Shown one piece after another: positions 57,739 to 64,000 of a stretch of 64,000 nt of DNA; position 1 is the stretch's first letter, and each line of letters starts with the position of its first letter. The notes below the pieces were generated by a model. The model did not search any database. It saw only the letters and a list, made by a program, of their open reading frames with translations, and was not told the DNA's origin. Source of the stretch: Allofustis seminis DSM 15817 (GTDB lineage: Bacteria; Bacillota; Bacilli; Lactobacillales; Carnobacteriaceae_A); contig NZ_KB894079.1 of the NCBI RefSeq assembly GCF_000374325.1, forward strand, positions 156,910-220,909. The letters are read 5' to 3'. The translations under genes were made by a program, and so were the position numbers.

Positions 57739-58851
57739 CTATTTATTTGAATGAGTAGTTATCTTTTTTGATTGATAATTTTTCTTATAAAATTTAAAAA
57801 TTGCCAATACAATATCACGCGTAATCACATAGACAGGCAGCGCTAAAATCATTCCTAAAATTCCGAATAAATTCCCAGAAACAAGTAACACTAAAATAGT
57901 TGTAAGAGGATGAATACTCAAATTATTTTCCATCACTAATGGTGCAATAACATTTCCTTCCAATTGCTGAATAACCATAATTGTCACGACAACCATAGCT
58001 ACCGCAAACCATCCTTGCGTTGCTGCAACTAAAATTGCAGGCATAATCCCTAAAACTGGACCAAAATAAGGAATAATATCAAATACCCCTGCTAGCACAC
58101 CTAAAAGAATCGCATTAGGTAACCCCAATAGCATAAAAGATAAATAGGAAGCTACCGCAACATATAAACATAAAATTAGTCGTCCACTTGTATAGCCACT
58201 CACGCCATCATGAAAAATCTCCAAGATCTCTTCCACTAATGGTCGATATTCTTTCGGCGACAATTCAACAATTTTATCTGCACTTTTTGATCCATCTTTA
58301 AAGAAATAATATAAAATCACTGGCACTGTAAATAAATTAATAAAAAATGTAACGGTATAATTAACTGTTGAAGAAATGCCATCCCCTAAGCTACCTACTA
58401 CATTTTTTAAAGTATTGGACACATTGATGTCCCATTCATTTATCAGCTCATTAACTTGTTGCGAAGAAAGACCATTTTTTGAAAGCAAGTTCTCAACTTC
58501 TGTCACGACTGTATTAAAAATAGTCGGTGCCATTTTAATAAATGACGAAATTTCATCAATCAATTTAGGGAAAATGGCTAAGAATAAAAATCCAAATGCC
58601 AATATCAATACAAGAAATGAACTTAAAATGGCAAGCCATTGTCGACTAGTTTTTTCTAACACAAATTGATAAATTGGCAGTAAAGCATAATAAATGAATA
58701 AGGCCAAAATTACTGGAATACCTAATGTGCTAAATAAAGCATTTATAGGAATGAATAAAAATGACACTTGTTGATATGTTAAAACAATTAAGCCTACAAG
58801 AAAAACAAACATTAAAAATGCAATTATTTTAGAACCTTTTAAATATTTCAC
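57739..58851 (-). CDS. AI-2E family membrane transporter (PerM-like)
   Basis: 370 residues. Seven or eight hydrophobic helices with a soluble part (about 85-150), and the family motif GVLAGVFDIIPYFGPVLGIMPAIL (about 255-278) plus LVLLVSGNLFGILGMILALP. Members export small molecules or ions, including autoinducer-2 in one case and sodium in others; substrate not predictable here. Start GTG 58851 after GAAAGGAAAG. Its own terminator separates it from the ABC-F unit. Confidence 0.85.
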   Translation of the reverse strand: MKYLKGSKIIAFLMFVFLVGLIVLTYQQVSFLFIPINALFSTLGIPVILALFIYYALLPIYQFVLEKTSRQWLAILSSFLVLILAFGFLFLAIFPKLIDEISSFIKMAPTIFNTVVTEVENLLSKNGLSSQQVNELINEWDINVSNTLKNVVGSLGDGISSTVNYTVTFFINLFTVPVILYYFFKDGSKSADKIVELSPKEYRPLVEEILEIFHDGVSGYTSGRLILCLYVAVASYLSFMLLGLPNAILLGVLAGVFDIIPYFGPVLGIMPAILVAATQGWFAVAMVVVTIMVIQQLEGNVIAPLVMENNLSIHPLTTILVLLVSGNLFGILGMILALPVYVITRDIVLAIFKFYKKNYQSKKITTHSNK

Positions 58852-58979
58852 AAAAATACTTTCCTTTCTTTAAATCCCAAATCATAATATCCTTTTGATT
58901 TTACTACAATTGGCGACGATTGAAAACAATATTTTAACATGATACGATAAATAGATGAAAATGTGAGGTGACGAATAAA

Positions 58980-59642
58980 ATGCAAAATGATATACCTGAA
59001 TTGTTATTGTTGCTAATTAATGATGAAAAACATCAAAAAGCAGCAACAATTTGTAAACGCAATGGTCTAACATCTGCTACTTATTTCTTTGCACATAGCA
59101 TGGCAGATATTAAATTGTGGCAAATGCTAGGACTAGATGATATGCACCGAGAATGCACGTTAATTATTGGCCCCTCTCATCGCACAAAAAGTGCATTACA
59201 TCAAGTGGCTGAGGCGCTGCATTTAGATAAAAAGAATAATGGATTAGGATTGAGAATTTCTTTAAAAGATGTTTTAGGGATTCGTGAAGAAAATGATATT
59301 GATTCAGCCAATTTATCCATATTGACAGAGAAAGGACAACATAAAATGTATAATATTGTCATAACAATTGTAGATCGTGGAAAGGCAGATCTAGTTCTTG
59401 ATGCATCAAAACGTGCAGGCGGTAACGGTGGAACAATTATTCATGGTCGTGGCTCTGCTGCTAAATCAAAAAAGGTATTTAATATGGAAATCGAGCCTGA
59501 AAAAGAAATTGTTGCCATTATTATTGAAAATGATAAGACAGATAATATTGTCGCCACAATTGCTGAAGAATTAAAAATTGAGAAAGAAAATACGGGAGTT
59601 CTCTTTACTTTCCCACTTGAAGAAGTCCGCGGTGTTGTTTAG
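58980..59642 (+). CDS. tandem P-II-like signalling protein
   Basis: 220 residues, twice the P-II length. The C-terminal half (about 118-220) has the fold markers YNIVITIVDRGKADLVLDASKRAG, GNGGTIIHGRGSA (nucleotide-binding region) and the final GVLFTFPLEEVRGVV. The N-terminal half (about 1-105) keeps the pattern weakly (LLLLINDEKHQKAATICKRNG; NNGLGLRISLKDVLGI) and lacks a clear nucleotide site, so it looks like a degenerate copy. The T-loop has no uridylylated Tyr motif. Start ATG 58980 after GAGGTG. The stop codon overlaps the SD of the DUF1538 gene, so the two are tightly coupled. Confidence 0.8.
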   Translation: MQNDIPELLLLLINDEKHQKAATICKRNGLTSATYFFAHSMADIKLWQMLGLDDMHRECTLIIGPSHRTKSALHQVAEALHLDKKNNGLGLRISLKDVLGIREENDIDSANLSILTEKGQHKMYNIVITIVDRGKADLVLDASKRAGGNGGTIIHGRGSAAKSKKVFNMEIEPEKEIVAIIIENDKTDNIVATIAEELKIEKENTGVLFTFPLEEVRGVV

Positions 59643-59656
59643 GAGGATGATAGAAT

Positions 59657-61123
59657 ATGAGGCAAATCACTATAAAATTAAAAGAAATTAGCGCATCAGT
59701 TTTACCAATTGTTTTATTTGTTTTATTTCTTCATTTTACAATCACGCCTCTTGAATTCAGTGCATTAAAAAATTTTTTGTTTGGTAGTATCTTTGTAATT
59801 CTTGGTCTTACAATATTTCTAGTGGGGGTGGACATCTCCATCACACCCGTTGGAGAATATTTAGGTAAAGGGCTCATTTTAAGCGCAAAAACTTGGATCG
59901 TGTTAGGCATTGGTTTCATTTTAGGCTTTATGATTTCTTTTGCGGAACCTTCCTTAGGCGTGCTAGCGAACCAAATTAGCATTGTAACTCATGACGCTAT
60001 TTCTGCAAGTTCCATTTTAATTGCAATTTCTACAGGTGTCGGATTAATTGTTGGGATAGGGAGTCTTAGAATTTCAAAAGTTTTTCCCATCAAAAAATTG
60101 ATCTGGGGCTTTTATTTACTTATGTTTGCCGTTATGATTGTGACATCCAACACATTCATTTCTCTATCATTTGATGCATCTGCTGCAGTTACTGGAGCAA
60201 TTGCTGTTCCATTCATTATGGCAATTGGGGCAGGTATCGCAGAGCTAAAAAAAGGCGCTTCAGAGGCTGATAACTTCGGCTTAACGGGAATGGTACCAGT
60301 AGGTGCTGTCATTGCCATGATGTTGCTCAGCTTATTTATCGGGGCAGATGATGTAAGTGGTTCATTAGAGATTTCTAGCAGTCATGATATTCCTTTCTTT
60401 AGCTATTATTTGCAGACAATGAGCGCCCAACTTAAAGATGTTGCAATTTCGGTCTTACCTGTTACTTTCGTCTTCTATCTTTATCAAGTAACCAAATTAA
60501 AACTCAACCGTTTTAATGTCCATCGCATTACAGCTGGCTTTATTTATGTATTTATTGGCTTAGTTTTATATTTAACGGGCGTAAATGCTGGCTTTATGAA
60601 TGTCGGTGCATTAATCGGTTTTAAATTAGCTTCTTTAGATTCTCATTGGCCATTACTTTTGATTTCATTTTTATTAGGTGCAATGACCATTCTAGCGGAA
60701 CCAGCGGTCTCAGTTCAGACACATATGATTGAAGAAGTAACAGGAGGATCAGTAAAAGGCAAACCCATTAAAGCCTCATTATCAATCGGCGCTGGTTTAG
60801 CCATTTTATTTGCTGTCAGTCGTATTCTTATTCCTGAACTGGAACTATGGCATATCGTTGTTCCAGGATATATTATTGTACTTCTGATGACTTTAAAGGT
60901 ATCAGATTTATTTGTAGGTATGGCATTTGATGCAGGAAGTGTCGCATCTGGCCCAATGGCTGCAACTTTTATCTTGGCTTTTGTGCAAGGTATTGCAGAG
61001 GCTATTCCATCCGCTGATGTCTTACAAGATGGTTTCGGAATGATTGCATTAGTACTGATGGTACCAATTATTGCCATTTTAATTTTTGGGTATTTATATG
61101 AAAAAGAACTGAATAAATCTTAA
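59657..61123 (+). CDS. DUF1538 integral membrane protein (putative transporter)
   Basis: 488 residues with about 12 hydrophobic helices in two related halves. Repeat markers: FLVGVDISITPVGEYLG against YLTGVNAGFMNVGALIG, and SFAEPSLGVLANQI against ILAEPAVSVQTHMI. A mid-chain FMAIGAGIAELKKGASEADNFGLTGM matches FVGMAFDAGSVASGPMAATF of the second half. This internal duplication is the layout of a DUF1538 permease. Substrate unknown. AGGAGG precedes the ATG, 14 nt after the P-II gene, and a terminator follows at once. A P-II protein next to a permease suggests it gates transport, as GlnK gates AmtB; this is inference. Confidence 0.82.
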   Translation: MRQITIKLKEISASVLPIVLFVLFLHFTITPLEFSALKNFLFGSIFVILGLTIFLVGVDISITPVGEYLGKGLILSAKTWIVLGIGFILGFMISFAEPSLGVLANQISIVTHDAISASSILIAISTGVGLIVGIGSLRISKVFPIKKLIWGFYLLMFAVMIVTSNTFISLSFDASAAVTGAIAVPFIMAIGAGIAELKKGASEADNFGLTGMVPVGAVIAMMLLSLFIGADDVSGSLEISSSHDIPFFSYYLQTMSAQLKDVAISVLPVTFVFYLYQVTKLKLNRFNVHRITAGFIYVFIGLVLYLTGVNAGFMNVGALIGFKLASLDSHWPLLLISFLLGAMTILAEPAVSVQTHMIEEVTGGSVKGKPIKASLSIGAGLAILFAVSRILIPELELWHIVVPGYIIVLLMTLKVSDLFVGMAFDAGSVASGPMAATFILAFVQGIAEAIPSADVLQDGFGMIALVLMVPIIAILIFGYLYEKELNKS

Positions 61124-61125
61124 AT

Positions 61126-61158
61126 AAAAAAGCAGGTCAAAAAAGACCTGCTTTTTTT
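61126..61158. terminator. bidirectional terminator between DUF1538 and the ABC exporter
   Basis: AAAAGCAGGTC / GACCTGCTTTT arms (61128-61138, 61145-61155) with A/T runs on both sides. Confidence 0.88.
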
Positions 61159-62899
61159 AATCCATAAATTGACTTTCATATAATTGTGCATACATTCCTT
61201 TGGATGCTATCAATGCCTGATGGGTTCCTTGTTCAACGATTTTTCCTTTTTCCATCACAATAATCGTGTCAGCATCAACAATAGTCGACAGACGATGTGC
61301 AATTACAAAGTTTGTACGACCCTGCATTAAGTTCTTCATGCCTTTTTGAATCAGTCGTTCGGTTCGAGTATCTACTGAACTTGTTGCTTCATCTAAGATT
61401 AAAATATCTGGATTGGCCACAAAGGCTCTTGCAATTGTTATAAGTTGTCGCTGGCCTTGGGAAATATTTGTAGCTTCTTCTTTTAATATTGTGCAATATC
61501 CGTCTGGCAAACTTTCAATAAAGTGATGGGCATGTGCTTCTTTTGCTGCTTGGAAAACCTCTTCTTCTGTTGCATCTAAAGCACCATACTTAATATTGTC
61601 ATAAATTGTTCCTTGAATTAACCATGTTTCTTGAAGAACCATTCCGAAAAATTCACGAAGGTTCTGTCTGGAAACATTGCGAATATCTATGCCATTAACT
61701 AAAATTTGTCCATCTGTTACATCATAAAATCTCAGTAATAAATGGACTAATGTAGTCTTTCCAGCGCCTGTTTGACCTACAATGGCAATCGTTTCTCCAT
61801 GACGAATTTTAAATGAAATATTCTCTAAAACAGGAGCATTTTCTTCATATGAAAATGAAACATTTTTGAATTCAATTGACTGAATTGGACGTGTAATCAC
61901 TTGATTAGCATGTTTATATTCTTCTGGTGCATCCAAAAATTCAAAAACTCTTGCTGCCGAAGCTAGCATTTCTTGTAGCGTATTTGCCATATCTGCAATA
62001 ATGTCGATTGGGCGGCGAATTTCTTGACTATATTGAATAAAAGCTAAAATATCTCCTAGGAGCATCTGTTGATGGACGACTAACAATCCACCGACGACTG
62101 CAATTAGAACATATGATAAATTACCAATGAAAATCATAATAGGCTGCAAGACACCAGCCATAAAACTGGCACGATAGGAAACAGAATATAAATGATCGTT
62201 GATTTCTTTAAAAACTTTTGCTGAGTCTTCTTCATAACCATAGGCTTTGATTAAATCTGTTCCCGAAAAATTCTCTTCTACAAAGCCAACCATTGCTCCC
62301 AACCCCGCTGATTTTTCTTTAAAATAGCGTTGTGATTTTCTAGTAATCCACTGCGTTGCAAAATAATTCAACGGAATAGTTATAAGAAAAACTAAAAAAA
62401 GAGTCGGACTGATAATAAGCATCATTGCTACAATTCCTATCACTAACAAAATGCTTGAAAAAATGCGATTGACACTCAGTTGAATATTTCGACCGATAAC
62501 GTCAATATCATTCGTCATACGACTTAACAAATCACCCGTTTGTCTACTATCAAAATAAGACAGCGGGATTTTTTTGATTTTATAAGATAATTGTTGGCGC
62601 ATATCTCGAATTAAAGATTGCGACAAATACTCTAACATATAGGATTGAGCAATATCAGCAACCGTTGAAAATATATAAAGCATGCCCAAAATCATTAAAA
62701 AATGAATAATACTATCAAAATTCAATGAATCATTTTGGGTCATGACACGCTGCAAATGTGAAACAATTTTCCCCATGTAAATCGGTGCAAAGATACTGAA
62801 TAATGTGACCAATAATGTTGTAGCAATCGCAATAACACTTTGAAATTTATAAGGTGCCAAATATTTCAATAAACGTTTGATTGTCTGTTTTGCAGTCAT
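61157..62899 (-). CDS. heterodimeric ABC exporter, canonical-Walker B subunit
   Basis: 580 residues: six membrane helices (about 1-310) then one nucleotide-binding domain. Walker A GQTGAGKTTLV, Walker B ILILDEATSSVD with the catalytic Glu, but the signature reads NISQGQRQL instead of LSGGQ. Its ATG overlaps the stop of the upstream partner (TAATG). Together they form a heterodimer of the LmrCD/BmrCD/EfrAB kind, exporting drugs or lipids. Substrate not known. Confidence 0.9.
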   Translation of the reverse strand: MTAKQTIKRLLKYLAPYKFQSVIAIATTLLVTLFSIFAPIYMGKIVSHLQRVMTQNDSLNFDSIIHFLMILGMLYIFSTVADIAQSYMLEYLSQSLIRDMRQQLSYKIKKIPLSYFDSRQTGDLLSRMTNDIDVIGRNIQLSVNRIFSSILLVIGIVAMMLIISPTLFLVFLITIPLNYFATQWITRKSQRYFKEKSAGLGAMVGFVEENFSGTDLIKAYGYEEDSAKVFKEINDHLYSVSYRASFMAGVLQPIMIFIGNLSYVLIAVVGGLLVVHQQMLLGDILAFIQYSQEIRRPIDIIADMANTLQEMLASAARVFEFLDAPEEYKHANQVITRPIQSIEFKNVSFSYEENAPVLENISFKIRHGETIAIVGQTGAGKTTLVHLLLRFYDVTDGQILVNGIDIRNVSRQNLREFFGMVLQETWLIQGTIYDNIKYGALDATEEEVFQAAKEAHAHHFIESLPDGYCTILKEEATNISQGQRQLITIARAFVANPDILILDEATSSVDTRTERLIQKGMKNLMQGRTNFVIAHRLSTIVDADTIIVMEKGKIVEQGTHQALIASKGMYAQLYESQFMD

Positions 62900-64000
62900 T
62901 ATTTGGCCACCCCCTCTTCTCCTTGTGAAATCGCAATTTCTTGATAAATTTTATTATGTTTTAAAAGTTCATCATGTGTTCCAACTCCTACTAATCGTCC
63001 ATCATTTAAGACAAAAATTTTGTCCATTTGTCGAATTGTTGCAACACGTTGGGCTACGATAATAGTAATTTTATTTTTTAATTGACTGTGTAATTTCTTT
63101 CTTAGGTGATAATCTGTTCGAAAATCAAGAGCTGAAAATGAATCATCAAATAAATAGAGGGAGGCATCGCGACTTAGGGCACGCGCAATCGCTAAGCGTT
63201 GACGTTGACCACCAGAAAAGTTTGCTCCGCCACGATATATCTCCTGATCCAGCACTTTTTTATCGCTTAAATTTAAAAAAGACTGCGTTTGTGCAGTAGC
63301 TAATTCATTAAGAATTCGTTCGTCCGTTGCATATTTATTGCTATATTGCATATTTCCGCGAATAGAATCAGAAAAGAAAAAGATTTGCTGTGGTAAATAA
63401 CTAATTTCTTGCCTTAACTCTTTTGTTTTAATTGATTGAATGGGGCAATGGTTGATCTCTAATGTGCCCGATGTGGGCTCATAAAATTGCAGTAATAGTT
63501 TTAAAAGTGTAGATTTCCCACTTCCTGTTCCCCCTATAATTCCAACTGACTCTCCAGCAAAGATTTCAAAGTTTAACTGGTCCAGTGCAGGATGATTTGC
63601 ATAAGGATAATTAAATGTTAAATCCATTGCTTTTATAGACTGTATTGGGCCATCAAGCGAATGATTACCGCCTGTTTTATGAATAGGATAAGTAATAACT
63701 TCTTCTACACGATGAATGGAAGCTGACGTTCTTGGTAAAAGTGTCAACATATAAGACAACATAATGAAGCCACTAAGCATTTGTGTAATATATTGAATAA
63801 ATGCCATCAACTGTCCAATTTGAATAGTGTTTGATAATACGAAGCGGCTACCAAAATAAATGACGGCAATGATAGCGATATTCAAAAATAAAACCATTAA
63901 CGGACGGATCGTTGCCAAGTCTTTATTTAATTTTAGATTCAATTCATAATGTTTTTGACTGGCTTCATTAAAAATCTCTTCTTCCTGAGCATCATTTGAA
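62899..64000 (-). CDS. heterodimeric ABC exporter, degenerate-Walker B subunit (5' end outside window)
   Basis: The frame is open to the window edge, so the N-terminal membrane helices are missing. Visible: the last helices and an NBD with Walker A GGTGSGKSTLL, a canonical signature FSGGQRQRLAIARAL, and Walker B LYLFDDSFSALD, where Asp replaces the catalytic Glu. The partner has Glu but an altered signature, so one ATP site is consensus and one degenerate, as in TM287/288 and LmrCD. Transcribed first, coupled by a 1-nt overlap to the partner. Confidence 0.9.
   Translation of the reverse strand, partial: SNDAQEEEIFNEASQKHYELNLKLNKDLATIRPLMVLFLNIAIIAVIYFGSRFVLSNTIQIGQLMAFIQYITQMLSGFIMLSYMLTLLPRTSASIHRVEEVITYPIHKTGGNHSLDGPIQSIKAMDLTFNYPYANHPALDQLNFEIFAGESVGIIGGTGSGKSTLLKLLLQFYEPTSGTLEINHCPIQSIKTKELRQEISYLPQQIFFFSDSIRGNMQYSNKYATDERILNELATAQTQSFLNLSDKKVLDQEIYRGGANFSGGQRQRLAIARALSRDASLYLFDDSFSALDFRTDYHLRKKLHSQLKNKITIIVAQRVATIRQMDKIFVLNDGRLVGVGTHDELLKHNKIYQEIAISQGEEGVAK

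Follow-up and report, generated by a model that had tools for sequence, protein, structure and literature searches.

A tandem PII-fold protein encoded beside a duplicated DUF1538 membrane protein: a candidate PII-gated cation/proton antiporter in Allofustis seminis and other Bacillota

We analysed a 64,000-nucleotide stretch of the Allofustis seminis DSM 15817 genome (contig NZ_KB894079.1, positions 156,910 to 220,909), here called the window, in which two adjacent genes encode a PII-fold protein and a DUF1538 membrane protein (Table 1). The stop codon of the PII gene (TAG, 59640-59642) overlaps the AGGAGG ribosome binding site of the DUF1538 gene, an overlap already given in the preliminary description of this DNA. 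A GTG at 58968 falls within the ribosome binding site of the PII gene itself. The promoter-like match upstream of the pair is of a kind for which chance matches are common in this region. The hairpin downstream has a 13 bp stem and touches, at 61157, the stop codon of an ABC gene; because it lies between convergent genes and touches that stop codon, we take it as a terminator common to both operons, so that the terminator described earlier stands as a hairpin and not as one belonging to the pair alone.

Table 1. Features of the PII-DUF1538 locus, in window coordinates.
Feature	Position	Strand	Basis and details
Promoter-like TTGAAA-17-TACGAT, TG ahead of second hexamer	58920-58948	+	consensus scan only
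Ribosome binding site GAGGTGA, PII gene	58965-58971	+	sequence
Tandem PII-fold protein gene	58980-59642	+	ATG to TAG; 220 aa
First PII-fold domain, eroded in this species	58995-59264	+	model elements E7 to E94; conserved columns lost
Second PII-fold domain, conserved GGT-GRG and PEKE motifs	59346-59633	+	Pfam residues 127-217; model
Ribosome binding site AGGAGG, DUF1538 gene	59641-59646	+	sequence; overlaps PII stop codon
DUF1538 membrane protein gene	59657-61123	+	ATG start; 488 aa; repeat A followed by its homologue, repeat B
Repeat A (residues 3-228); E97 and D173 invariant; about seven helices in the membrane	59663-60340	+	alignment, model, loop charges
Repeat B (residues 254-483); E348 and D425 invariant; about seven helices in the membrane	60416-61105	+	alignment, model, loop charges
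Bidirectional terminator hairpin, common to the pair and the convergent ABC gene	61126-61157	.	-18.2 kcal/mol, z = -7.6

The ABC gene is one of two ABC exporter half-transporter genes (61157-63942, reverse strand) that converge on the pair and use the same terminator; the first is MsbA-like and the second is assigned from sequence alone. On the other side an AI-2E family membrane protein is encoded divergently from the PII gene (57739-58851, reverse strand). A member of this family is reported as a Na+(Li+)/H+ antiporter (PMC7221264); none of the frequent neighbours that the pair has at related loci is an AI-2E gene. The genome (1.44 Mb, 99.7% complete) has no other P-II gene and no other DUF1538 gene, and the AmtB family (Ammonium_transp) is absent from all of it, which extends to the whole genome the earlier remark that no amtB lies nearby.

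The Pfam P-II domain matches only residues 127-217 of the PII protein, with an E-value of 9e-6 that is barely above the cut-off. The predicted model (pLDDT 79.5) has the order strand-helix-strand-strand-helix-strand in each half, that is, the beta-alpha-beta-beta-alpha-beta, ferredoxin-like fold of the PII superfamily, and Foldseek matches it to GlnK/PII structures with probability 1.00. Because both halves have this six-element pattern and the matches are to GlnK/PII, we conclude that the protein is a tandem PII; the P-II profile also matches 25 of 26 aligned relatives. The two copies are unequally preserved: the first retains 9 of the 23 columns conserved in the first copies of relatives, and the second 26 of 34. 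Where relatives have GGT...GxGT, the first copy reads SAT...AHSM, and its tree branch is among the long ones (1.84, median 0.43). A double-length P-II protein with a degenerate first copy, as proposed from the sequence, is thus what the model, the structure matches and the conserved columns describe. Elsewhere it is the second copy that has weakened, scoring 74-81 bits in Trichococcus-type loci (L071, L081, L088, titled Sedimentibacter, L089, L106, L116, L132, L141 and L143) as opposed to about 140 in other loci, so either PII copy can decay. Some relatives, such as Atopococcus tabaci, have both copies intact.

Relatives strongly conserve two motifs of the second copy, GGT-GxG and PEKE. The canonical uridylylation motif of the PII T-loop follows the PROSITE pattern Y-[KR]-G-[AS]-[AE]-Y. 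Neither this pattern nor the GDGK B-loop that holds ATP phosphates occurs in any of the 298 PII domains examined, which makes canonical nitrogen signalling unlikely and indicates that any ligand is probably not sensed through the canonical ATP/2-oxoglutarate chemistry of PII.

Pfam finds DUF1538 twice in the 488-residue membrane protein (E 5.5e-114), and the model (pLDDT 84.8, pTM 0.84) has one helix series occurring twice. Each repeat is broken at an invariant Glu-Pro in segment 3 and again right after an invariant Asp in segment 6; the acidic residues E97, D173, E348 and D425, invariant in 20 of 20 homologues, lie at or near these breaks in the predicted membrane helices. Mean loop charges differ between repeats A and B, at -0.06 versus +4.19 for loop L1, +1.81 versus -0.94 for L2 and -0.83 versus +0.62 for L5, and the contrast is opposite for most loops in fused and split proteins alike; L3 and L4 fit it more poorly, and single-repeat forms are ambiguous. 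The simplest reading is that the two repeats probably insert in opposite directions with seven helices each, 14 in total, leaving both termini in the cytoplasm. Such a placement of the termini agrees with the C-terminal PII fusions described below, and 7+7 helices agrees with the seven membrane segments predicted for each of the homologous proteins UmpA and UmpB (PMC5484666). The internal duplication proposed earlier is therefore present, in two Pfam copies, and the 12 helices proposed with it are probably an undercount. A Foldseek search of the PDB with the DUF1538 model gave no match at E <= 0.001 (best TM about 0.2), and a profile search of PDB sequences gave no DUF1538 match; EAAT3, VcINDY and ClC, the weak top Foldseek matches, were discounted as evidence.

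Querying GTDB genomes with an alignment of DUF1538 returned 559 stretches encoding relatives. In the best-scoring 80 of these, all Bacillota by title, a PII gene of the same type adjoins DUF1538 in 80 of 80. Since the best 80 are the closest relatives, a less biased phylum-wide draw was added: DUF1538 occurs in 101 of 300 genomes spread over Bacillota, and all 40 loci taken from this draw, lower-scoring ones included, have an adjoining PII gene. The reverse search, with the window PII protein against 61 related genomes, found DUF1538 adjacent in 29 of 30 loci. Over all distinct operons with DUF1538, PII is present in 140 of 141, the lone match without it (L177) being a fragment of about 100 aa; as this total includes loci found through PII, the 80/80 and 40/40 counts are the fair figures. 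The two genes are thus kept together across genomes, not found mostly apart.

The arrangement varies around this constant association. DUF1538 comes first in 127 cases, with a median gap of -11 nt when the earliest potential start is used, and PII first in 25, with a median gap of +24 nt; PII followed by DUF1538 is frequent in the family of the window, and DUF1538 followed by PII is commonest overall. Depending on the locus, DUF1538 is a single fused chain or is split into two genes. Two related genomes (L060, L061) have a third PII domain fused to the DUF1538 C-terminus, giving proteins of 613-614 aa. Plasmid searches returned matches from Bacillota and Alphaproteobacteria only, two Alphaproteobacteria plasmids having the order DUF1538-DUF1538-PII. 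Scanning the window region and 24 related loci with Rfam gave three matches, all outside the DUF1538-PII genes and none upstream of them, and no RNA element at the operon, so an upstream riboswitch or other RNA element was set aside as a clue to the substrate. Further neighbours amounted to generic ABC genes and, for the most part, Trichococcus synteny. As no additional conserved gene or known RNA element accompanies the pair, it can be called self-contained, and the linkage and the fusions give strong support to the original proposal of a self-contained transporter-plus-sensor unit. The conserved linkage to a transporter expected of a PII-controlled transporter pair is present here, and its retention, together with occasional fusion, suggests built-in control of a cation transporter.

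Copy numbers are matched as well. Counting DUF1538 repeats and PII domains, each whether fused or present as two genes, PII domains and repeats stand at 2:2 in 123 of 141 distinct operons and at 1:1 in 6 of 141, which suggests one PII domain per repeat. Exceptions have two repeats with one PII domain (L056, L176 and Methylocystis L214; Chelativorans L215 likewise has a single PII after DUF1538) or three PII domains per two-repeat DUF1538 (L052, L060, L061 and L062). The trees place an old split between repeats A and B, and the single-repeat forms branch with B. A single clade of all first PII copies is not rejected by the AU test (p 0.63), and for this reason an independent PII duplication in the split-DUF1538 group, grouped so by FastTree, was dropped. 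Since one first-copy clade is permitted, the 2:2 rule may rest on few evolutionary events.

The only functionally studied DUF1538 pair found in our literature search is UmpAB of Halomonas zhaodongensis, for which Na+(Li+,K+)/H+ antiport is reported (PMC5484666). In that account, which comes from a single laboratory, UmpAB gave E. coli KNabc back its tolerance of salt and alkali and exchanged Na+, Li+ and K+ for H+ in everted vesicles; UmpA and UmpB were both required for the full effect and co-immunoprecipitated. UmpAB is reported there as active in E. coli without a PII partner, and the account does not mention PII. A 2026 study lists DUF1538 among Pfam predictors of growth pH, beside the Mrp, Trk and Kdp families (PMC13255231). 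The UmpA and UmpB models of NCBIfam match 20 of 20 aligned DUF1538 proteins, and the DUF1538 domain expected of an UmpAB-type antiporter is present in the window protein in two copies. The window protein scores 152.8 bits against UmpA (equivalog cut-off 490) and 125.1 bits against UmpB (cut-off 500); these cut-offs exceed what a single repeat can reach here, so the scores indicate homology to UmpA and UmpB and not identity of function, and, lying so far below the cut-offs, they allow that the substrate could differ. Cation/proton exchange is the best-supported putative activity of the window protein, judged from homology. The anion or nitrogen-linked nutrient first guessed as substrate is not the best choice, given what is reported for the sole characterised DUF1538 pair.

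We propose, with slightly better than even confidence, that the two genes encode a cation/proton antiporter gated by PII in the manner of GlnK-AmtB or SbtB-SbtA. Both genes would specify one regulated transporter, whose DUF1538 protein would be a fused version of UmpA-UmpB, with two homologous seven-helix repeats in opposite orientation that would jointly carry out antiport of protons with a monovalent cation, Na+, Li+ or K+. The tandem PII would dock onto the cytoplasmic face of the DUF1538 protein and adjust, block or permit exchange according to a small cytoplasmic ligand. This proposal draws on the conserved pairing, the natural fusion, the short or overlapping spacing, the PII fold in both halves, the homology to UmpA and UmpB and the opposite charges of the repeats in most loops; from these we infer direct binding and regulation by PII, as well as which cation is carried, which way control runs and the involvement of a ligand. 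In GlnK-AmtB and SbtB-SbtA the T-loop enters the transporter (PMC8352866, PMC10710835), and gating of DUF1538 by the T-loop, as in AmtB, would be only an analogy. A bolder version, which we think doubtful as a whole, would make the pair a class, not described before, of sensor-gated cation antiporters in which each of the oppositely oriented repeats has its own PII domain and the PII site works without the canonical nucleotide motifs. PII domains usually assemble in threes. A tandem PII would consequently have to assemble in an uncommon way, perhaps as two PII rings over three transporters.

Other readings of the pair differ in what the transporter carries or in what the PII protein does. PII might gate DUF1538 while the cargo of this branch of the family is not Na+, Li+ or K+ but, for instance, an anion or a metabolite, with coupling to protons or sodium. 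The sub-cut-off UmpA and UmpB scores, the single functional study of the family and the ammonium or bicarbonate carried by other PII-linked transporters (PMC10710835, PMC8352866) would fit such a cargo; however, the nearest functional data in the same Pfam family concern cation/H+ exchange (PMC5484666), the conserved membrane acids suit cation or proton binding, and DUF1538 groups with cation transport families in the growth-pH model of PMC13255231, and we consider a different cargo rather unlikely. Less probable again is a PII protein that serves as a permanent structural subunit or assembly factor, holding an oligomer together with little or no ligand sensing. The nearly one-to-one number of domains and repeats, the natural fusion to the transporter, the lack of canonical ligand motifs in 298 of 298 domains and the erosion of one copy in the window and of the other in Trichococcus-type loci are all compatible with that role, but GGT-GxG and PEKE are strongly preserved in the second copy, as a ligand or contact site would be, and UmpAB is reported to function in E. 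coli without PII (PMC5484666).

Ordinary nitrogen control, with a GlnB/GlnK-type PII beside an unrelated permease by chance, is what the automatic annotation of relatives as 'P-II family nitrogen regulator' would imply. It is already contradicted by linkage in 120 of 120 DUF1538-sampled loci, and the DUF1538-PII fusions, the missing uridylylation and GDGK motifs and the absence of AmtB from the genome also stand against it, leaving it highly improbable. The preferred reading, a PII-gated cation/proton antiporter, shares with GlnK-AmtB the gene for a PII-fold protein adjoining that for a membrane transporter, but here the transporter is unrelated, the PII chain has two domains without the uridylylation motif or GDGK B-loop, and the genome, with no AmtB and no second P-II, offers no Amt partner. 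The closest mechanistic model is SbtB-SbtA of cyanobacterial bicarbonate transport, which likewise combines a PII-like protein with an ion-coupled inverted-repeat transporter; SbtA, however, has 5+5 helices, whereas the DUF1538 model matches no solved structure and the window PII is tandem. UmpAB has Pfam DUF1538 in both parts and two homologous parts of seven predicted helices (PMC5484666), and differs in that the window protein is one chain scoring under the equivalog cut-offs and has an adjacent tandem PII, of which the Halomonas account makes no mention.

The transport processes that PII proteins are known to gate are those of ammonium and bicarbonate. The DUF1538-PII pairing, apparently undescribed until now, sets PII beside a family of cation/proton antiporters, and a full-text search on DUF1538, covering literature outside subscription, returned passages with no link to PII. 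One in three of the sampled Bacillota genomes has DUF1538, as do some plasmids of Alphaproteobacteria, but all 14 well-known genomes used as controls lack it; this may be the reason that the pair escaped notice. If the proposal is true, many bacteria would couple their balance of sodium, potassium and pH to a signal in the cytoplasm through direct protein contact. The pairing also supplies a definite partner for a family of transporters without a solved structure and with a single functional study. PII beside a cation/proton antiporter has a precedent in PII-NG with CzcABC (Sant'Anna 2009, as cited in PMC7726332), although CzcABC is another transporter class, for metal export. A PII-like cytoplasmic cap is reported on AexB (YvjA), where, as in the L060 and L061 fusions, a PII-like domain is joined to a Bacillota membrane transporter; AexB differs in that it exports aromatic amino acids, comes from a different family of membrane proteins and has the cap in the same chain (PMC13170310). 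The pair would thus belong to a known theme of PII-controlled transporter pairs.

A few loci depart from the usual layout in single details. At L110 (2480-3247) an in-frame stop lies inside the first PII domain, the second remaining open and the operon being otherwise 2:2; this could be decay or an assembly error. L117 (5001-8004) has DUF1538 followed by two tandem PII genes, with four PII domains, and its contig ends shortly beyond. The DUF1538 copy at L053 is truncated, and an intact one (L054) exists elsewhere in its genome. At L058 (5682-5996, reverse strand) a lone single-domain PII of the same clade has no adjacent DUF1538 and lies upstream of a gene resembling a glutamate racemase fusion; a DUF1538-PII pair of the usual kind (L059) is present in that genome too.
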